A stretch of 64,000 nucleotides of DNA from SAR324 cluster bacterium (lineage in GTDB: Bacteria; SAR324; NAC60-12), in contig JADFZZ010000004.1 of assembly GCA_015232315.1 (NCBI GenBank), positions 115,414 to 179,413 of the forward strand, given 5' to 3'. A model generated the notes under the pieces. The model was not told the DNA's origin and searched no databases. It was given only the letters and a program-made list of their open reading frames with translations. This document shows positions 31,447-59,135 of this stretch, one piece after another (positions within the stretch are counted from its first letter, which is position 1; each line of letters begins with the position of its first letter). Both the position numbers and the translations under genes were made by a program.

Positions 31447-32409
31447 ATGTCTTTTCAATTCATCAAATGTCATGGTTCAGGCAACGATTTCATCATGTTG
31501 GAAGAATCTCAACTGCCAGAAGCCTGGGGCCCTCAGGAAATCGCTCAATTCGCTCGTCTTGTTTCTGATCGTCAGGGACACCTCGGGAGCGATGGTGTGT
31601 TGATCGTTGCGCCTTCAACCCGGTTTGATGGAAAAATGGTCATGTATAATTCGGATGGTTCCCGATCAGAAATGTGCGGAAACGGTATGCGTTGTGTGGC
31701 TCGCTTTCTCTTTGAAAAAACTGGCAGAGATCAACTGATGGTGGAAAGCGGCCTGGGGGTTGTGCCATGCCGCAGGCAAGCTGACATTTTTCAGGGCGTT
31801 TATACGGTTTCAGTCATTATCAACCCTGTCAATCTACAAGCGGAGACTGTCCCTGTCCATTATCCAGTACCACAAATTTTGAACCACCCCATGCCCGAAA
31901 TGGATCAGAACGCCACCTTCACAGCACTCAGCATTCCTAATCCACACCTGATCTCCATTCAGTCTGAAATTGATCGGGAACGTTTGCTTCAATGGGGTGA
32001 GACGGTCAAGGAACGGCAGGATATTTTCCCCAGGGGAATCAATGTGAGCATGGTAAAAGTCCTTGGGAAAAACCGGATTTTTGTCATGACCAATGAACGG
32101 GGATGTGGCATCACCCAGGCATGCGGAACGGCCATGTCTTCAAGTGCTTATGTAAGTTGTCTGCAAGGACTGTGTGACTATGCCAGTCCGGTTGAAGTTC
32201 AAAGTGAGGGGGGAATTACATTTTGTCAGGTGGAAAATCCTGAATCAGATCAGGTTTTATTGACAGGAAATGCGACCTATGTGTATCAAGGCCTGATTGA
32301 AATGGAATCTCTGGAAAAAGGACTCTGGCATGTGGCACAAAAAACCATGATCCCCCGGGAACAACAGCAGTATGAGGCGATGGTCAGACAATTCCGAAAG
32401 GCCTCATGA
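31447..32409 (+). CDS. dapF: Diaminopimelate epimerase
   Basis: Interconverts LL- and meso-diaminopimelate for peptidoglycan and lysine synthesis. The 320-residue protein has both catalytic Cys segments: EMCGNGMRCVARF (first Cys) and GITQACGTAMSSS (second Cys). It also has the N-terminal KCHGSGNDFIML, DGVLIVAPS, YNSDGSRSEMCGNG and NPHLIS. The insertion around residues 130-150 and the substitution of the usual GSGET-type stretch by RGCGITQ are slight departures. ATG 31447 follows AAGGA; the frame extends upstream to 31333 without homology. The stop overlaps that of the convergent next gene by a few bases. Confidence 0.92.
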   Translation: MSFQFIKCHGSGNDFIMLEESQLPEAWGPQEIAQFARLVSDRQGHLGSDGVLIVAPSTRFDGKMVMYNSDGSRSEMCGNGMRCVARFLFEKTGRDQLMVESGLGVVPCRRQADIFQGVYTVSVIINPVNLQAETVPVHYPVPQILNHPMPEMDQNATFTALSIPNPHLISIQSEIDRERLLQWGETVKERQDIFPRGINVSMVKVLGKNRIFVMTNERGCGITQACGTAMSSSAYVSCLQGLCDYASPVEVQSEGGITFCQVENPESDQVLLTGNATYVYQGLIEMESLEKGLWHVAQKTMIPREQQQYEAMVRQFRKAS

Positions 32410-33015
32410 GGCAACCGTATCCCGGATTCGTCGTGTTTCAGCTCTTAATTTCTGCAGGAGAGGCGCATAGTTGGTCGACCCTTCGGTGCGATCTCTCAAT
32501 AAATTACGGATAATTGCCAGAAACGCGTCAGCGGATTGCTGAATCAATTCAACCGGCACATCTGTCAATTCATGACGATGCATCTGAATCTGTTCAATCA
32601 GGCTTTCGGTTGATTCAGAAACCAGTCGCAATTTCTTGGAAGATATGATGTTGCAATGATATTTGATTTTGTGAAAGATGGAATAGAGCATATCAATCTG
32701 TTTGCTGTCTTCAGGATGATTGCGCAGTTTTTCCAGTTCCAGATCAATGGTGATCAGCGATCCGACCACTTCCTCCATAAACTGTTCAAGCACCAGCGTT
32801 TCCTGATCTGCCAAAGTTCCCCCCGTAGTTAGCGGAGCCTGTTGATCTTTGGGTTGGGGTTTGTCAGGTGCTTCAACGGTATCCTCTATAGCAATCAGTT
32901 TCAGCACAGGCTTGCTTTCCTTGGAAATCAGAATCTCGTTTCCCTTGAGAGCCAGAATCATGAGGTGTTGAAATTGTTCCTCAACTTTGTCGATCTCAAC
33001 CATTTTAGTAGGCAT
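32404..33015 (-). CDS. Phd/VapB-like N-terminus fused to HPt-like domain
   Basis: A 203-residue cytoplasmic protein. Residues 4-50 (MVEIDKVEEQFQHLMILALKGNEI, then LISKESKPVLKLIAI) follow the pattern of Phd/VapB-type antitoxin N-termini, which contain a G-E/N-x-I-x-I-x-x-x-x-x-P-V-x-x-L core. After a linker, residues 85-195 look like an HPt helix bundle: FMEEVVGSLITIDLELEKL, then IFHKIKYHCNIISSKKL, where the His occupies the phospho-accepting place of CheA-type HTxKG. I read it as a DNA- or protein-binding head plus a phosphorelay module; this is motif-based inference. ATG 33015 is preferred; a TTG at 33036 is possible. It lies 45 bases after the next unknown gene, probably as one operon. Confidence 0.6.
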   Translation of the reverse strand: MPTKMVEIDKVEEQFQHLMILALKGNEILISKESKPVLKLIAIEDTVEAPDKPQPKDQQAPLTTGGTLADQETLVLEQFMEEVVGSLITIDLELEKLRNHPEDSKQIDMLYSIFHKIKYHCNIISSKKLRLVSESTESLIEQIQMHRHELTDVPVELIQQSADAFLAIIRNLLRDRTEGSTNYAPLLQKLRAETRRIRDTVAS

Positions 33016-33059
33016 AGCCAATAATATTCCTCTCAAAAACCGACGTATGTCGGCATGTG

Positions 33060-36399: not shown

Positions 36400-36519
36400 C
36401 TTTCAGGCTCAAGAGAGAGCCTCTCAATCTCGTTCCTTCAGTTCAATGGTCATCACAGGCAGTTCAAACAATTTCCTGCTGTAAATAATTGGGTGATGAA
36501 ATCCTGTGGTTCGCCACAA

Positions 36520-36586
36520 TGTCATCCCCGTGAAAACGGGGATCCAGGAGTGCACCGATGGATTCCGTGTCAAGCACGGAATGACA
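36520..36586. repeat. Dispersed cruciform-type palindrome
   Basis: The element starts TGTCAT and ends ATGACA, with inner hairpins CCCCG / CGGGG and TTCCGTG / CACGGAA, joined by GGATCCA and TGGATTCC. This TCATCCCCG...GGATCCA type is a palindrome dispersed in many proteobacterial genomes. It fills the gap between the lipoprotein and the CheA-like/CheZ gene. Confidence 0.7.
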
Positions 36587-36674
36587 CCGTTTGACAGCCT
36601 GAACCGGTTGCTGTCACCAGAAAATTTACAGCGGGAACAATTTGTCAACAGACAAAAATTTTCAGGTAAGCGTT

Positions 36675-38729
36675 ATGGCGGGGATAATTCAGAATGACAC
36701 TTTGGAACAACTGATTCCATTGCTGAAAAATGTGGATCAAGGTCTTGTTTCCTTGGAACGGGACCGGAGAAACACCCCTCTTCTGGAAGCGTTGATACTG
36801 AATTTTCACACTATGTCAGAACTGTCCCAACCCCTTTCCATGACCTCCGAACTCTCCCTGTCGATCTCGGAAATGCTGAAAAAAGTTCTTGAAAATCAGG
36901 ATACCATTTCTTCAGCAGGCTTTGAAATTCTGTTCAACGTCATGCCTCTCCTGCAGGAACAACTGGAATGGTGTCAAGCCCATGATTCCGAGGTTAGAAA
37001 CTCACAATGGGAACCACTAAGTCAGGCTCTTCAGCGTATCACTTCGCCTCAACCTGAAGCAATTCCCGCGGCCGTACACCACGTCACTGCGGAAACACCT
37101 GCGACCGCTTCTCCTGAAATGATGAGTGTCCTGCTGGCGCATAACAATAAAATATTGGAAATGATCCGGGAAGTGGAAGAGGTCACCTATGCGGGCGATC
37201 TGGACGCGATTCGCGAGCATGTCAATGAATGTATTCATTTTTGTGAATCGCTGGCGTTGGCTGAAATCTCAACGATTGAAAGCAGTCATGGCGAAAGCAT
37301 CACATCGATCCTTGAAGAACTGAAAGTCATGGTTCGTCAGTGGGGCATTGTTCAGGGAAAAGATATTGAATTGGTTGTAGGAGAGCATTATCATGTTACT
37401 AATAAAAAACAGCTTTCTGTCCTGAGAAAAGCCTTGTTTCAATGTTCTGAATACCTGATCGAGAGCAGCCTGGAAACACCAAGCAATCGCCGCAAAAAAG
37501 AACCCAAAGGGCACATCTACATCGACATTACGGAAGAAAATGACAATTTACTGATCGGGATCACTGATGATGGCCGTGGCTTGCGAACAGATTTCCTGAA
37601 AAACAGGGCTCTGGAACGGGGTGTCACCAGCAACACCGAACTCAAGCAGATGGAAGAATATGAAATCTGGTATTTTCTGTTTCGTGAAGCCATGTTTTCA
37701 CGTGAAGATGCCGAGGTTGGCGCCAATCTGCCCAAACTCAAAATACAGATTGAAGAACTTGGCGGCACCATTGGCTTGGAGTCTGTACCTGGAGAAATGT
37801 CCTCATTTCTGTTGGTTCTGCCTCAAAAAACAAACCTGATGGGAGAAATGTCAGGCTTCAACACCAAGGGCTTGCCGGAAGATGTTTCAAGAAATCTGGA
37901 AAACCTTCAGGATTCGGTGGATGATTTACAGTTCATTATCCATGGCGGGGCGATGAACTCCGATGGTGTGACGTCTTTGGAAAAACACCTGAGTTCGGTG
38001 TTTTCAACCATCAAACACCTCGTGGAAAAAATAAATCAGGGAGGCAGTTCCAAAGGTCTGGACCTCAAGGAAATTGCGATGGTGGATCTGTTTGGTGAGG
38101 TTGGAAACATTACCCGGGAGATGCATGACAAACTGAAAGATTTTGGAACCATGATGGATTCCCAGTTTCAAAATCTGACCATGGAGCGTATTCCTGATGC
38201 GGCTCACCGATTGGAGCACATCATTGAAATGACAGAAACCTCGGCCAATACCACACTCGATCTGGCAGAGAAGCTCACACTCGATTCGAATGAAACCTCC
38301 GAAGACATGGATGCCCTCAAAAAACTTCTGGGACAGAAAACCGTGGATGTCGAGGCTTGTCTCAAAATTGTTGAATCGGTCAAAGCCCGGGAAGTGAAAG
38401 TCAATGACAGTTTGCTGGATGTTATGACAGCACAGGATTATCAGGACCGGACCGGACAGGTCATTCGAAAGATCATTGAACTGGTCAATGACATGGAACA
38501 GAGACTGGTTTCCTTGATCACAAAATTTGGCACAATTCTGGGCGTAAATCCTGACGAATCGGCTTCCTCCAGGCATGAAACAGCCACGAATAAACAGGTG
38601 AACATTTCAAACATGATCGAGGAAATTACTCCGGAAAATGTGGAAATGTATGGTCCTCAACATTCGAAAGGAAAAGGGATGACGGATCAGGATGATGTTG
38701 ATTCCCTGCTGGCACAGTTTGGTTTCTGA
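36675..38729 (+). CDS. CheA-like (HPt + degenerate ATPase) protein fused to CheZ
   Basis: A 684-residue cytoplasmic protein with two chemotaxis halves. Residues 5-110 form an HPt-like bundle with His45 in NFHTMSE. Residues 205-400 follow a CheA P3/P4 layout. The G1 box DDGRGL is kept (near residue 298), but the N box normally RNAxDHG reads FQCSEYLIESS, and the GRGVGMDVV box is replaced by GANLPKLKI, so ATP use is doubtful. Residues 430-684 are CheZ-like: AHRLEHIIEMTETSANTTLDLAE, MTAQDYQDRTGQVIRKII with the catalytic Asp/Gln helix, and the CheY-binding tail QDDVDSLLAQFGF. It probably dephosphorylates CheY-P under control of the CheA-like part. ATG 36675 follows AGGTAAG; TTG 36642 is an alternative. 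Confidence 0.85.
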   Translation: MAGIIQNDTLEQLIPLLKNVDQGLVSLERDRRNTPLLEALILNFHTMSELSQPLSMTSELSLSISEMLKKVLENQDTISSAGFEILFNVMPLLQEQLEWCQAHDSEVRNSQWEPLSQALQRITSPQPEAIPAAVHHVTAETPATASPEMMSVLLAHNNKILEMIREVEEVTYAGDLDAIREHVNECIHFCESLALAEISTIESSHGESITSILEELKVMVRQWGIVQGKDIELVVGEHYHVTNKKQLSVLRKALFQCSEYLIESSLETPSNRRKKEPKGHIYIDITEENDNLLIGITDDGRGLRTDFLKNRALERGVTSNTELKQMEEYEIWYFLFREAMFSREDAEVGANLPKLKIQIEELGGTIGLESVPGEMSSFLLVLPQKTNLMGEMSGFNTKGLPEDVSRNLENLQDSVDDLQFIIHGGAMNSDGVTSLEKHLSSVFSTIKHLVEKINQGGSSKGLDLKEIAMVDLFGEVGNITREMHDKLKDFGTMMDSQFQNLTMERIPDAAHRLEHIIEMTETSANTTLDLAEKLTLDSNETSEDMDALKKLLGQKTVDVEACLKIVESVKAREVKVNDSLLDVMTAQDYQDRTGQVIRKIIELVNDMEQRLVSLITKFGTILGVNPDESASSRHETATNKQVNISNMIEEITPENVEMYGPQHSKGKGMTDQDDVDSLLAQFGF

Positions 38730-53265: not shown

Positions 53266-54201
53266 TTAGTTTTTGAGGCAGAAACGATCTACGGCTTCAA
53301 GGAGTCCCGCAAAGTTGTTTTTCGCGATATGCGCGTCCGCGTAAACACTTTGGGATTTCTGGATCATTTGTTCATCAAACATCGAGGACAGAATGATGAC
53401 CGGAATTTCAGGGATGTCTTCCTTGATTTTACGACACAGGGTAATGCCATCCATCTTGGGCATTTCAATGTCTGTGATGATCACACTGACATAATCCGTA
53501 ATATGATTATGTTCATGAACAGCCTTGATTTTCAGGGCATGGACTGTATTGAACAGGTCAAGTCCGTTGCTGAACAGGGTGATATCTTTATATTCCGCGA
53601 TTCTAAGATTTTCCCTGACACCCTCCTTGAACGTGACTGAATCATCGGCCAGCATGATTTTTGATGCGTTCCTTCTGCTTTTTTTATCTTCAATTGAAAG
53701 TTTCTGGCTTTCATTCTGGACAAATTTCCGGCTTTCAGGGTTGATATCAAAAATAATCCCTTCAAAATCAAGAACCAGAAGTTCCCGTTCATCAATGGTG
53801 GTGGTGCCGACGATGCGTGAAGTGTACTGAGACAGGGTATGGGGCACTGGATGCAGATTTTCCCACGAAATCCGATGAATACGGTTCACCCCGTTTGTCA
53901 GAAATCCGTTGAGCGCACCGTTGAATTCACAGACCAGCGCAATGGGAATGTGTGGTTCGGTGAAGGGTTTTCGTTTCAGATGCAGATTCAGATCAATCAG
54001 TGGAATCGCCTGTCCATGATACAGAACGGTTCCAAGGACAGAGGGATAGGTGTTGGGCAATTTGGTGACGCTGGCAAAATCGAATTTTACAATCTGTCGG
54101 ATTTTGGCCACATTGATGCCGAAGCTCTGATGTCCCAGATAAAATTCCAGGAATTCCACTTCATTGGTTCCTGATTCCAGGAGAATGTTGTGCTCTGTCA
54201 T
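53266..54201 (-). CDS. cheV: CheV chemotaxis coupling protein
   Basis: A 311-residue protein: a CheW-type domain (about 12-160; EFYLGHQSFGINVAKIRQIV, VLGTVLYHGQAIPLIDLNLH) followed by a receiver (about 180-310). The receiver has LADDSVTFKEG, the phospho-acceptor Asp in VIITDIEMPKMDG, Ser in ILSSMFD and a Lys at the end of sheet five (HIAKNN). CheV couples receptors to CheA and its receiver tunes the coupling. ATG 54201 follows AAGGCC. It lies 63 bases after the chemoreceptor gene on the same strand, forming receptor-coupler units with cheW. Confidence 0.93.
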   Translation of the reverse strand: MTEHNILLESGTNEVEFLEFYLGHQSFGINVAKIRQIVKFDFASVTKLPNTYPSVLGTVLYHGQAIPLIDLNLHLKRKPFTEPHIPIALVCEFNGALNGFLTNGVNRIHRISWENLHPVPHTLSQYTSRIVGTTTIDERELLVLDFEGIIFDINPESRKFVQNESQKLSIEDKKSRRNASKIMLADDSVTFKEGVRENLRIAEYKDITLFSNGLDLFNTVHALKIKAVHEHNHITDYVSVIITDIEMPKMDGITLCRKIKEDIPEIPVIILSSMFDEQMIQKSQSVYADAHIAKNNFAGLLEAVDRFCLKN

Positions 54202-54264
54202 AAGGCCTTGTGGAAATGGGAACGGATGGTTTCCGTTCCCAGGTGTTGAGGAACCCTAAAGGGG

Positions 54265-56961
54265 TCAATATTTTCCAAATTCATCATCATCCAATTGGAT
54301 TACCTGACTGGGATGAATCTTTTTGCCTTTGGAAGCTGGCGGCAGATTGGCCGGTTTTGGTGTCGGGTTGGGCCTTGGTGCCGCTGGAGCCGGTATGACT
54401 GGTTTGGGTGCTGCCGCAGGGGGCCGACCACCTCCCGTCTGTGCCAGATATTGCTGGAAAGCCTGCATCATTTCAGGTGGAATATTCATGGGCAGATCGT
54501 AGTTCACTTTCTTTTCTTTCAAACGGAACCGTGACAGTTGTTCTTTCAACTGAATGGATTGTCCGGAAAGTTCTTCAGCGGCCGCCGCACTTTGTTCGGA
54601 ACTGGCTGAATTCTGCTGGGTCACCTGTTCAATCTGATTGAGTCCCTGGTTGATTTGTGAAATGCCTGAAGCCTGTTCCCGGCTGGCGGCAGTGATTTCG
54701 CTGACCAGATCTCGCACCTTGGTGATACTGTTTACAATTTCTGTCAAAGCGTCTGCTGTTTTATCCGCAATTTCAATTCCTCTGCGAACTTTTTTGATGG
54801 AATCACCGATCATTTCAGTGGTTTCCTTGGCGGCTTGAGCACTGCGTGCCGCAAGATTGCGTACTTCATTGGCGACAACCGCAAAGCCTTTGCCATGGGT
54901 TCCCGCACGGGCGGCTTCCACAGCGGCATTGAGTGCCAACAGGTTTGTTTGAAAGGCGATTTCGTCAATCACCTTGATGATTTTTGAAATGTTTTGACTG
55001 GAATCATCAATGGCCGCCATGGCCACTGTCATTTCTTTCATCTGCTGGTCACCAACTTCGGCGCTTTCACGTGCGACCTTGGCGAGTTTGTTTGCCTGAT
55101 CGGCATTTTGAGCGTTTTGTTCAGTTTGAGAGGACATTTCCGCAATGGACGCGCTGATTTGTTCCACCGATGCGGCCTGCTCCGTAGCACCCTGGGCCAA
55201 AGCCTGGCTGGAATCCGCGATTTGCCGGCTACCTTCCGCAATTTCAATGGATGCCTGCTGGATTTGACCCAGCATATCGTTCAAGCCATCCACAATTTTC
55301 AAAATGGCATTCCCCATTGCGTCAACATCTGATTTGGGGATAATATTTACTGTCAGATCCCCTTCGGATATCGTTTCAGCCGAAGTTGATAATTCGCGGA
55401 GTGAGTCCAGTGTTGTGTTCAATGCGTTTTTAAGCATGGCGTGATCACCCTTGTATTCACCTGTGACATAGGCATTCACATCACCCCGGGCAATATGCGC
55501 CAGTTTCTCACGAATTTCCCCGATGGGTTCGACAATGGCTTCAATGATTTGGTTGATATTGGTGATCATGGGTTTGTAAGCTTCTGGCATTTCTGCGACA
55601 TTGCCCCGGTCATGGAGTTGTCCTTGTGTAACGGCATTGAGCAACCGGTTAATTTCTTTTTTATAAATAGCCCGTTCATTGTAATCCACCCATTCGACAC
55701 CATTACCGATATGGTTGCCATCTTTATCCCGGAGTGCCATGGCGTTCAATCCGAAAGCCAGGCCGCCAACAGAAATTTCTGTTTTATAGGGCAGGTTTCG
55801 AGGATTTCCAAGAATGCTCCGCTGATGTGCCGGGTTTTTATGAAACTCATCCAGATTGCGGCCAATGAGTTTGTCCACGTCAAATCCGGGAAACAGGCTT
55901 TTGAAAATGTGGGTATATTGCCGCATCATTTTCAGAACGGAAGGATTGCAATAGGTGATCTTGAAGTCAGTATCGCATACCATGAAATTGGTGGTTGATT
56001 CTTCTATCATGCAGGATAGTCGGGCCGCTTCCTGTTCTTTGGAACGCTCCTTGGAGATATCTTTCCATTCCAGTGTGGCTCCGATGTAATTTCCCTGACC
56101 ATCAATAATGGCATTCACACTGAGTCTGAATATCAGGTGCATGACATCAATTTCTGTGCTGTAGGGTAAATTGGACGGATTGCCCAGAAGTGAACGTTGA
56201 CGTGAGGGATCCTGATGGAAATCATCAATGCTTCGGCCAATCAGTTTGTCTGGATGGAAATCCCTGAATCGTGTCTGAAACGCTTTCAAATGGGTTTTGA
56301 ACATACTCCTGGCGGTTTTGCTCACATAGGTAATCCGAAGGTCTCGATCACACATCATGATGTTGACGCTTGAATTGTCAACAGCCGCGCGGAGGGCATT
56401 CAGATCATTTGCCATGTCAATTGTTTCAGTCATAGAGGACTCCTTTGGGTTCAATAAATTAGAAACCGGATGATGTTCATGACGGGCATCCGGCGTTTCA
56501 ACAATCTTAAATTTATTTGAATGTTCTTTCGGCGATGGTTCCAGTTGATAGGTTTTCAACAGGGTGTGAAAAATCACATTGAGAAATTCAAGCCATGAAT
56601 TCCGGATTTCCAGGCTCCATTCCGTGCCATAGTCTTCACGGAGCAAGGCCAGTAAGCGCGTTCTGATTCTCCCGACAAATTCAGGTAAAAATCCGTATTT
56701 CTGAGCAGATTGCCCAAGTTGGATCCATTGTGGGATCCATAATTCAGGGTTTTCTGTGTTTGCCAATAGTTCCCGGCACCAATACCTGACAACGGATTCC
56801 AGTTCAGCAGGAGCGATATTCTGAAAATACTGCCATTCGGTCAAAAACGGTTTAAGTGACAAGACCCATGAGATCACTTGAGCTGGATTGTTTAATCCCT
56901 GGATAAACTTTTCGAGAATTTCAACCTTAAATCCAAGCGGGTTCTGTATCAGGGCATGCAT
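54265..56961 (-). CDS. Cytoplasmic chemoreceptor: globin-like region, two PAS domains, MCP hairpin
   Basis: An 898-residue methyl-accepting protein without a membrane segment. Residues 1-140 resemble a globin fold, especially WIQLGQSAQKYGFLPEFVGR followed by LLALLREDYGTEW. The position of the heme His (three before Y in YGV/YGF) is Ala, so heme is unlikely. PAS1 (about 185-300) and PAS2 (about 310-425) are of the kind with HxNPxxQRxxL and LEWKDIS/VEWVDYN. A HAMP-like segment (about 450-560) and the signalling hairpin EIAFQTNLLALNAAVEAARAG follow. The tail is Pro/Ala-rich with acidic DDDEFGKY and no NWETF-type tether. ATG 56961. It reads an internal cue and couples through the neighbouring cheW and cheV. 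Confidence 0.88.
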   Translation of the reverse strand: MHALIQNPLGFKVEILEKFIQGLNNPAQVISWVLSLKPFLTEWQYFQNIAPAELESVVRYWCRELLANTENPELWIPQWIQLGQSAQKYGFLPEFVGRIRTRLLALLREDYGTEWSLEIRNSWLEFLNVIFHTLLKTYQLEPSPKEHSNKFKIVETPDARHEHHPVSNLLNPKESSMTETIDMANDLNALRAAVDNSSVNIMMCDRDLRITYVSKTARSMFKTHLKAFQTRFRDFHPDKLIGRSIDDFHQDPSRQRSLLGNPSNLPYSTEIDVMHLIFRLSVNAIIDGQGNYIGATLEWKDISKERSKEQEAARLSCMIEESTTNFMVCDTDFKITYCNPSVLKMMRQYTHIFKSLFPGFDVDKLIGRNLDEFHKNPAHQRSILGNPRNLPYKTEISVGGLAFGLNAMALRDKDGNHIGNGVEWVDYNERAIYKKEINRLLNAVTQGQLHDRGNVAEMPEAYKPMITNINQIIEAIVEPIGEIREKLAHIARGDVNAYVTGEYKGDHAMLKNALNTTLDSLRELSTSAETISEGDLTVNIIPKSDVDAMGNAILKIVDGLNDMLGQIQQASIEIAEGSRQIADSSQALAQGATEQAASVEQISASIAEMSSQTEQNAQNADQANKLAKVARESAEVGDQQMKEMTVAMAAIDDSSQNISKIIKVIDEIAFQTNLLALNAAVEAARAGTHGKGFAVVANEVRNLAARSAQAAKETTEMIGDSIKKVRRGIEIADKTADALTEIVNSITKVRDLVSEITAASREQASGISQINQGLNQIEQVTQQNSASSEQSAAAAEELSGQSIQLKEQLSRFRLKEKKVNYDLPMNIPPEMMQAFQQYLAQTGGGRPPAAAPKPVIPAPAAPRPNPTPKPANLPPASKGKKIHPSQVIQLDDDEFGKY

Positions 56962-56990
56962 TCTTTCCGTATTCTGATGGATTGAAGTTG

Positions 56991-57470
56991 TCAGTGTGTT
57001 GAAGGCTGACGTTCCACCACGCGTTCAATATTCATGAGCACAATCACTTTTTCCTGAATTTTCCCCAAACCTTCCATGAATTTCTGGGTGGAAGGGTGGT
57101 TGGTTGATGGCGGTGGTTGAATGAGAGAGTCAGGAATGTTCATCACTTCGGAAACCCGATCCACAATCAAACCGACAAAGGCATCTTTCAACTGAACAAC
57201 AATAATGCAGGTCCGGTCATCATACTCCCGTTCCAGCATGTTAAAACGCAGACGCACATCCATCACAGGAATCACCTGTCCTCTTAAATTAATGACACCT
57301 TTGATATAAGGTTCTACATCAGGAACATCGGTGACTTTCTGAATTCCGATAATTTCGAGAACATAGCGAATGGCGATGCCATAGGTCTGTTCAGCCAGGG
57401 TAAAAGTGAGGTACATGCCTGACATTGCATCTTCATCCTCTGTTGCCCCGTTGACTTGGTTATTGTTCAT
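56991..57470 (-). CDS. cheW: CheW coupling protein
   Basis: A 159-residue CheW-domain protein linking receptors to CheA. It has YLTFTLAEQTYGIAIRYVLE, the strand YIKGVINLRGQVIPVMDVRLRF and IVDRVSEVMNIPDS, followed by a short C-terminal helix. The N-terminal ~20 residues are polar. ATG 57470 has GGAGATGATT upstream; ATG 57488 is earlier without a site. It is 29 bases ahead of the chemoreceptor, so cheW-receptor-cheV form one leftward transcript, divergent from cheR. Confidence 0.93.
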   Translation of the reverse strand: MNNNQVNGATEDEDAMSGMYLTFTLAEQTYGIAIRYVLEIIGIQKVTDVPDVEPYIKGVINLRGQVIPVMDVRLRFNMLEREYDDRTCIIVVQLKDAFVGLIVDRVSEVMNIPDSLIQPPPSTNHPSTQKFMEGLGKIQEKVIVLMNIERVVERQPSTH

Positions 57471-57702
57471 AATCATCTCCGATTTCACATAATACTGGAA
57501 TAAATCACATTTAGTATCTACTTATCAAAGTATTTCCAACTAGTTCAAGCCCAATTTAAAACTTTATCCCCGGAATTTAACTTAATTTATTCCATGCCTG
57601 AGAAACTCTGAATTTTTTACTATCACTTTGCGAGTGTAATTGCTATAGAGGGGAAAAAACTTACAATAAGTTGGCTTTCCATCATTTTTCAGCACAGCGG
57701 AC

Positions 57703-58566
57703 ATGACTCAAACCAGCACCAGCGCACCTTTTGAATCTATTGGTATCTCAGCGGAAGAATTCAAGTTGTTTCAACAATTCATCTATGAGCGTGTCGGAAT
57801 CAATCTTTCTGAACAAAAACAGGGATTACTGGTCACACGACTGAACAAACATATTAAAAAACTGGGATTACGAAGTTTCAGGGACTACTATGACTATCTG
57901 ACAAGAGATACCACAGGGCATGAACTGAGTGAACTGATCAATCAGGTATCCACCAATCATACCTTTTTCTTCAGGGAAAAAGCCCATTTTGATTTTATGA
58001 CAGAAGCAGTATTGCCGCAAATCACGCAGACCCTGAGCAGTCGTGGCGAACTTGATTTGAGGGTCTGGTGTGCGGCCTCTTCAACGGGTGAAGAACCCTA
58101 TGGACTGGGGATGACTCTGATGGAGTTTCTGGGCGACAGATATTCTTCATGGAGTGCTGGTTTGCTCGCCACGGATGTTTCCAGCCAGGCTCTTGAAACA
58201 GCGCAGAACGGCTTTTATTCCGATGACCGGGTGGCTTCAGTGCCAGCGCATTTGAAAGCCAAATACTTTATCAGAGTTGATGAAACCACATGGCAGGTCA
58301 AACCACATCTACGGAAAGAGATCACCTACCGCCGGTTCAATCTGATGAATAAAACCTTCCCGTTCAGAAAACCGTTCCATATCATTTTTTGTCGCAATGT
58401 GTTGATTTATTTTGATCAGCAGACGGTGGAGGAACTGATCCACAGAATGTATACCTGGACTGCTCCGGGTGGTTATTTGTTTGTGGGGCATTCCGAATCA
58501 CTGGGACGAATCAATAATCCATACCGTTACATCAAACCTTCTGTTTATCGAAAGGATGGTTTATGA
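57703..58566 (+). CDS. cheR: CheR receptor methyltransferase
   Basis: A 287-residue enzyme that methylates Glu residues of chemoreceptors using SAM. The N-terminal helical domain (FKLFQQFIYERVGINLSEQK, TRLNKHIKKLGL) is followed by the SAM domain: RVWCAASSTGEEPYGLGM, LATDVSSQALETAQNG, and FHIIFCRNVLIYFD. The NHTFFFRE segment is typical. It opens the rightward operon, with 66 bases to cheD. The 230-base divergent gap to cheW must hold promoters for both sides; no sigma-28 site is obvious. Confidence 0.95.
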   Translation: MTQTSTSAPFESIGISAEEFKLFQQFIYERVGINLSEQKQGLLVTRLNKHIKKLGLRSFRDYYDYLTRDTTGHELSELINQVSTNHTFFFREKAHFDFMTEAVLPQITQTLSSRGELDLRVWCAASSTGEEPYGLGMTLMEFLGDRYSSWSAGLLATDVSSQALETAQNGFYSDDRVASVPAHLKAKYFIRVDETTWQVKPHLRKEITYRRFNLMNKTFPFRKPFHIIFCRNVLIYFDQQTVEELIHRMYTWTAPGGYLFVGHSESLGRINNPYRYIKPSVYRKDGL

Positions 58567-58631
58567 GTGGAGCGACATGTCTGCTGAAAAATTGAGTTTT
58601 TTGTTTCATTCAACATGCGGGGGAAAAACTG

Positions 58632-59135
58632 ATGTTTGCCACTGATTTGAAAAACATGAATGAGGTGGTGATAGGTCTGGGAGATATGGCCGTTGTGTCC
58701 GGGCCTGGAAAATCGATCAAAACGTTCGCGCTGGGGTCGTGTGTCGCCGTGATCCTGACAGCTCCACAGCAACAGATTGCGGGAATGGTTCATATTGTGC
58801 TTCCTGATTCAAGGATTGATGCCGCCAAAGCAAAAATCAAACCCGGATATTATGCGGATACAGCGATTCCGCTGTTGATTCAGAAGATGCGACAGGCAGG
58901 TGCCCGTGACGCTATGGTATGTAAAATCGCCGGTGGCGGGAAAATGGTTCAGTCGGTAGAAACGTTCAATATCGGAGAAAAAAACTACCTGGCCGCAGAA
59001 GAACTGTTGCGTAATTCAGGACTTTCCCTGGCCGCCAGGGACGTGGGAGGTGTATTGAGCAGAACGGTTTCTGTGTCATCCACAAGCGGGCAAATACTGC
59101 TTTCTTGTCCGGGTTATCAGGAGTGGCATTTATAA
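58632..59135 (+). CDS. cheD: CheD receptor deamidase
   Basis: A 167-residue deamidase converting receptor Gln to Glu. The catalytic Cys is in FALGSCVAVIL, the His in GMVHIVLPDS and the Gly-rich KIAGGGKMV loop follows; GYYADTAIP and RDVGGVLSRTVSV complete the family pattern. GGGGGAAA lies just upstream of ATG 58632. It sits between cheR and an unknown gene, all same strand and closely spaced, so it probably modifies the receptor at 54265-56961. CheD often also interacts with CheC; no cheC is present here. Confidence 0.93.
   Translation: MFATDLKNMNEVVIGLGDMAVVSGPGKSIKTFALGSCVAVILTAPQQQIAGMVHIVLPDSRIDAAKAKIKPGYYADTAIPLLIQKMRQAGARDAMVCKIAGGGKMVQSVETFNIGEKNYLAAEELLRNSGLSLAARDVGGVLSRTVSVSSTSGQILLSCPGYQEWHL

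Follow-up and report, generated by a model that had tools for sequence, protein, structure and literature searches.

A degenerate CheA-like core joined to a complete CheZ domain in bacteria of the SAR324 group

In chemotaxis, CheA acts as the kinase and CheZ as the enzyme that terminates the signal, and the P5/CheW domain is the array-docking domain of CheA. In the genome of a marine SAR324-type bacterium, one gene within a 64,000-nucleotide stretch (the window) places the on- and off-enzymes of this signal on a single chain, the kinase half being apparently dead. What is a signal-terminating phosphatase doing behind the remains of a kinase? Here we report an analysis of this gene and its relatives, from which we consider it fairly probable that the protein is a conserved fusion in which a dead CheA core (P1-, P3- and P4-like, without P5) heads a CheZ phosphatase and positions it or tunes its activity. 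Such an arrangement allows CheA-type parts to be tested for a role in regulating or tethering CheZ.

The ORF at 36675-38729 (+) is a single 684-aa frame with no internal stop. The upstream-extended frame (36642/36675-38729, +) contains an in-frame TTG at 36642 that precedes the ATG at 36675; the ATG is the likely start, since AGGTAA sits 5' of it and the homologue from a second genus of SAR324 starts at the matching residue. A MITE-like element of 165 bp (window 36473-36637), whose ends are 24-nt imperfect inverted repeats, stops 37 bp 5' of this ATG; it has 27 genome copies, each at least ~150 bp long and 84-100% identical, and the promoter of the fusion gene may perhaps lie within it. The features of the gene are collected in Table 1.

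Table 1. Features of the fusion gene, in window coordinates
Feature	Coordinates	Strand	Evidence
Whole gene: pseudo-CheA core (P1-like, P3-like, P4-like, without P5) + CheZ	36675..38729	+	ORF calling, second-genus homologue
CheA-P1/HPt-like helical bundle, residues 1-124, degenerate	36675..37046	+	hhalign, AF2
His45 codon at phospho-His column, not conserved	36807..36809	+	profile alignment, second-genus alignment
P3-like antiparallel helical hairpin, residues 147-206, dimerisation-domain position	37113..37292	+	AF2, Foldseek 4xiv
P4-like HATPase fold, residues 207-385, pseudo-ATPase	37293..37829	+	Pfam, NCBIfam, PDB, AF2, Foldseek, hhalign
N-box position, residues 254-267, LFQCSEYLIESSLE, lost	37434..37475	+	alignment to Desulfacinum CheA
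G1 box DDGRG, residues 298-302, kept	37566..37580	+	alignments
G2-box position, residues 346-355, AEVGANLPKL, lost	37710..37739	+	alignment
Helical linker, residues 386-467, at CheA P5 place	37830..38075	+	AF2 helices
Complete CheZ domain, residues 468-684	38076..38726	+	Pfam 1.6e-38, 1kmi 1.6e-11
CheZ catalytic D591-RTG-Q595 (E. coli D143/Q147)	38445..38459	+	1kmi match, alignments
CheY-binding C-terminal peptide DQDDVDSLLAQFGF	38676..38726	+	1kmi match, alignment of both fusions

Judged from its sequence, the C-terminal half is certainly a complete CheZ, as an initial annotation of this DNA had claimed. Residues 472-684 match the CheZ family of Pfam (PF04344; E 1.6e-38, 133 bits against a cut-off of 30.7), and matches were also obtained to the NCBIfam CheZ model (1e-25) and to the E. 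coli CheZ structure 1kmi (1.6e-11). Alignment to E. coli D143/Q147 shows the catalytic pair D591/Q595 intact, and the tail DQDDVDSLLAQFGF aligns with SQDQVDDLLDSLGF of E. coli CheZ, so that the CheY-binding peptide is intact as well. The AF2 model makes this part helical, at low confidence. The whole domain, the catalytic Asp/Gln and the CheY-binding C-terminal peptide are thus held in common with known CheZ, whereas ~465 CheA-like residues stand in front of it that E. coli-type CheZ does not have.

The best-defined portion of these residues certainly has the CheA P4 fold. Pfam HATPase_c reaches E 5e-5 and 24.1 bits, just under its curated cut-off of 26.4; NCBIfam CheA_Halo matches at 1.7e-15 (CheA P4 region, ~205-385), the Thermotoga maritima CheA P4 structure 1i58 at 8.1e-9, and hhalign against CheA P3-P4 gives 99.5%. 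In the AF2 model, residues 207-383 form a HATPase fold (pLDDT mostly 60-85), which Foldseek superposes on CheA P4; the closer hits have a TM of 0.86-0.89 by target length, and the first match is the CheA P3P4 structure 4xiv. The evidence from the fold is not fully independent, for the four aligned rows of the AF2 run included a true CheA P3-P4; the evidence on P4 from sequence and profiles does not depend on that row.

The catalytic motifs of this fold are largely gone. At the N box, Desulfacinum CheA LVHMIRNAVDHGIE corresponds to LFQCSEYLIESSLE in the fusion and to LFQFTQYLIEESLE in the second genus, and in both SAR324 genera the Mg-binding Asn of the N box is replaced by Tyr. The G2 box changes from SGRGVGMDVV in Desulfacinum CheA to AEVGANLPKL in the fusion and AEVGAQFPQL in the second genus, and the G1 box is kept (QDDGKGLD, TDDGRGLR and SDDGKGFR, respectively). 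With this Asn replaced by Tyr in both genera, kinase activity is very unlikely, and on these motifs P4 reads as a pseudo-ATPase in which the N and G2 boxes are gone and only DDGRG is left. The initial annotation had described just such a CheA-type ATPase layout, with DDGRG kept and the N and GRGVGMD boxes lost, and the alignment to Desulfacinum CheA (SGRGVGMD to AEVGANLP) bears this out. The structure prediction that it had proposed for the nucleotide pocket returned the HATPase fold, with the box losses read from the alignment. P4 might still bind ATP or ADP through DDGRG and so switch CheZ. Conservation of G1 (DDG[RK]G across the two genera) and the retained fold favour such nucleotide sensing; we regard it as quite unlikely, however, because neither genus has kept the Asn for Mg or the G2 glycines/ATP lid.

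N-terminal to P4, the AF2 helices 147-173 and 176-200 form a P3-like hairpin at low confidence (pLDDT 38-58). The Foldseek alignment to 4xiv runs on into P3, where the hairpin is of that low confidence, and Pfam H-kinase_dim has no match in the protein. The N-terminal segment is modelled as a helical bundle (pLDDT ~80-89) and scores 89.6% in hhalign against the CheA P1 profile, a value reached by none of 60 shuffles; a Pfam search of the protein gave no match of any Hpt model to this segment. The proposed HMM checks thus came out with CheZ over its cut-off, HATPase_c just below and Hpt unmatched. His45, which the initial annotation had placed in an HPt-like domain, indeed occupies the phospho-His column when the profiles are aligned to CheA P1; the HxxKG motif has become HTMSE (HxxSE), and the counterpart of His45 is Gln in the second SAR324 genus, the sole close relative. 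A P1-like fold is supported here; a phosphorylatable His in HxxKG is not.

These residues bear on the suggestion that the protein is a phosphate sink or phosphorelay, in which His45 would take phosphate in trans from a true CheA and a CheY or the CheZ half would remove it. The canonical position of His45 and the precedent of Rhodobacter split CheAs, which phosphorylate separate P1 domains (PMC10782961, PMC6829392), are compatible with such a route, but HxxKG is lost, Gln stands in place of the His in the sole close relative and Lys or Gln in the long CheZs of Desulfobacterota considered below, and phosphorylation by the protein's own P4 is not to be expected. We hold this reading, which the initial annotation had entertained, to be very improbable.

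No P5/CheW domain was found in the fusion by Pfam or at its genomic place by a genome-wide CheW search, and the absence of this domain means that the fusion is not a CheA. Docking to arrays through P5 is impossible, which weakens the array recruitment once proposed for the CheA-like part; it could associate only through its P3- or P1-like regions, perhaps with a true CheA. The absence of P5, the P3-like hairpin and the second genus all go beyond the initial annotation.

The second genus is represented by the SAR324 MAG PL25a_bin.125, which encodes a homologue of the same architecture, 45% identical and with the same motif losses. It is the only full-length relative found among ~85,000 species genomes, in a scan that reaches close relatives only, and it answers an earlier call to look for the same architecture elsewhere. 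Architecture and losses being shared by two genera, the fusion is not an assembly chimera. That an assembly error or a frameshift had merged two adjacent genes could have been suspected from the MAG-like multi-contig assembly and from the neighbouring positions of cheA and cheZ in other bacteria, but the independent MAG at 45% identity shows the same order and open frame and no stop separates the parts; we rejected this explanation, the chance of which is negligible. In sum, the three observations that had been named as fatal to the annotation were not made: the CheZ match is there, the ATPase pocket is not intact, and the frame is not an artificial join.

The identity between the two fusions is 35% in the P1-like part, 45% in the P3-like part, 46% in the P4-like part, 61% in the CheZ core and 90% in the 29-residue C-terminal tail. 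Conservation of the P4-like part is close to that of the P3-like part and exceeds that of the linkers, which argues that it is not decaying freely. The same figures weigh on the simplest rival, a plain CheZ carrying a passenger, in which the pseudo-CheA half would be a non-adaptive leftover of the fusion event with a role, at most, in tethering length or stability. The vanished kinase motifs, the mere 35% identity of the P1-like part and the lack of most of P3-P4 in the Desulfobacterota relatives would suit a passenger, but 45-46% identity of the P3/P4-like parts across genera beside 61% for the CheZ core, a fold intact in the AF2 model and a frame open in both genomes speak against it, and we consider it unlikely.

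We return to the conserved fusion with a positioning or tuning role. The protein would dimerise via the CheZ four-helix bundle and the P3-like hairpin, would not autophosphorylate, and through its CheZ half would dephosphorylate a CheY-P. The pseudo-CheA half may position the phosphatase or tune its activity, most simply by association with a true CheA, by analogy with the pair CheA-short/CheZ. In E. coli, CheA-short, a CheA form without the phospho-His region, tethers CheZ and brings it to receptor clusters, whereas the CheZs of delta- and alpha-proteobacteria were reported to lack the CheA-short binding site (PMC7750401). Unlike the fusion, CheA-short and CheZ are two separate proteins, and CheA-short keeps P5 and an intact P4. 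Of the pseudo-kinase-controlled phosphatase originally proposed, the joining of a phosphatase to a pseudo-kinase CheA module is supported by sequence, profile and fold, and control is a proposal.

A possible origin is suggested by Desulfobacterota, in which a cheA copy and cheZ, as adjacent genes, could have become joined. Among 22 CheZs of 430-530 aa from this phylum, nine have a Pfam Hpt match (best 8.5e-6), and cheA lies directly upstream of the long cheZ in 15 of the 22 sampled loci, with a 65-base overlap to a 15-base gap. In hhalign, the long-CheZ N-terminus scores 91.0% against the CheA P1 profile and 89.7%, collinearly, against the N-terminus of the fusion; the middle scores 83.5% against the last 39 residues of P4, and the P4-tail homology rests on these 39 residues. 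None of 60 column shuffles came near these values, and reversed profiles reached at most 2.3%. The phospho-His column in these proteins is Lys or Gln. Single-sequence AF2 of the Desulfacinum CheZ gave a bundle, modelled with confidence, that matches CheA P1 domains best among known structures (Foldseek prob 1.00, TM ~0.65-0.72 for crystal structures, E only 0.01-0.1) and shares its layout with the AF2 bundle of the fusion; at residues 175-205, the expected place of the P4 remnant, it gave a helix-strand-strand at low confidence. MAFFT set the long-CheZ P1-like part against the P4 region of the fusion, and the placement used here was taken from the profile comparison.

The fusion and the Desulfobacterota long CheZs thus appear to share a CheA-derived N-terminus. 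Like the fusion, a long CheZ (e.g. Desulfacinum hydrothermale, 472 aa) has a P1-like head without the phospho-His, a remnant of the P4 end and CheZ; unlike it, there is no recognisable P3, only the last ~39 residues of P4 are left, and cheA is directly upstream. In addition, both fusions have QDRTGQ where the motif reads QDLTGQ or QDLSGQ in all of the aligned long CheZs from Desulfobacterota, Arg592 being confined to the two fusions and Leu occupying that site in all the sampled long CheZs. The shared N-terminus fits either loss of P3-P4 in Desulfobacterota or their gain in SAR324. In the CheZ tree, the fusion does not stand next to the Desulfobacterota CheZs, although that placement is allowed (p-AU 0.476), as are those with SAR324-short (0.174) and SAR324-long (0.585); the tree neither shows nor excludes an origin of the fusion CheZ from SAR324's own two CheZ types. 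The SAR324 405-aa CheZ type, tried as an N-terminal relative, was rejected, as its N-terminus matches none of these profiles (at most 1.1%).

Probably, capture of a dead CheA core by CheZ founded a lineage of which the fusion is the least reduced member known. Somewhat short of an even chance, in our estimation, is the fuller scheme of one CheA-derived pseudo-kinase phosphatase family comprising the long CheZs and the SAR324 fusion, in which a neighbouring cheZ captured a cheA copy, catalysis and P5 were lost, the remnant became a built-in substitute for the CheA-short tether, and SAR324 is an intermediate keeping P3 and P4. If this link is true, the unexplained N-terminal extensions of many CheZs would gain a CheA origin and, with it, a testable role in bringing the phosphatase to CheA without CheA-short.

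Among 52 SAR324 genomes, the fusion occurs only in the genome of the window and in PL25a_bin.125, the other CheZs being ~250-290 aa or ~400-430 aa. Among the matches listed for 395 Desulfobacterota genomes, there was no unsplit CheZ in a frame >541 aa; scans of viral contigs found nothing, and a plasmid scan found cheA and cheZ only as separate genes. Desulfobacterota frames of 520-690 aa with split CheZs were rejected as further fusions, since they have a large hairpin insert and no HATPase. In these (L059, L060, L061, L065, L066), ~230-290 residues are inserted between the domain halves, and in the two scanned the insert had no Pfam match. PL25a_bin.125 also encodes a second, 1149-aa CheZ-CheA fusion (L056:11498-14947; G021:C55:294498-297947, minus), in which the CheZ, Hpt, H-kinase_dim, HATPase_c and CheW domains each exceed their cut-off; a CheW-sized gene comes after it. 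This possibly bifunctional kinase/phosphatase resembles the fusion of the window in having both enzymes on one chain in the same phylum, and differs in its N-terminal CheZ of the short SAR324 type and in having all of the Hpt, dimerisation, HATPase and CheW domains.

A full-text literature search, with subscription papers mostly outside its reach, returned no report of a CheA-CheZ fusion. A survey of 13,673 CheAs found P5/CheW in 100% of them and makes no mention of a fusion to CheZ, the fusions that it describes being those with CheC/CheX in Leptospirae (PMC10782961); since every CheA there has a CheW domain, pseudo-CheAs without P5 were probably missed. The reduced CheA remains that appear to be present in the Desulfobacterota long CheZs (P1 fold, P4-end remnant) are new here. 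The Leptospirae proteins also join a kinase protein to a CheY-P phosphatase, but are F1 CheAs with core domains, and CheC/CheX are unrelated to CheZ (PMC10782961). Rhodobacter sphaeroides CheA3 has a dead P4 and dephosphorylates CheY6-P (PMC10782961, PMC6829392). It is, like the fusion, a CheA derivative with a dead P4 and CheY-P phosphatase activity, known for CheA3 and predicted for the fusion, and differs in keeping a working P1 and P5 and in having no reported CheZ domain (PMC10782961, PMC6829392).

The fusion gene has no adjacent che genes; within the window, 14.5 kb separate it from the nearest chemosensory cluster. This cluster (53266-59132) encodes a CheW-REC (CheV-like) protein, a PAS-HAMP MCP, CheW, CheR and CheD, and just past the window on the same contig lies a 1180-aa frame with CheA-like and CheW matches. 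This genome has three cheZ genes, and no cheA was seen alongside any of them. It carries a large chemosensory set, with 39 CheW-domain matches genome-wide, two of its frames having three CheW domains apiece. Several CheY-P pools are likely, since it encodes three paralogues of FliM and has a CheW domain in at least a dozen frames of CheA length. Also in the window (32404-33036, minus strand) is a 210-aa protein with an HPt-like stretch, FHKIK, and a weak CheA match (0.0016), in which the segment ahead of this stretch resembles Phd-type antitoxins by eye.
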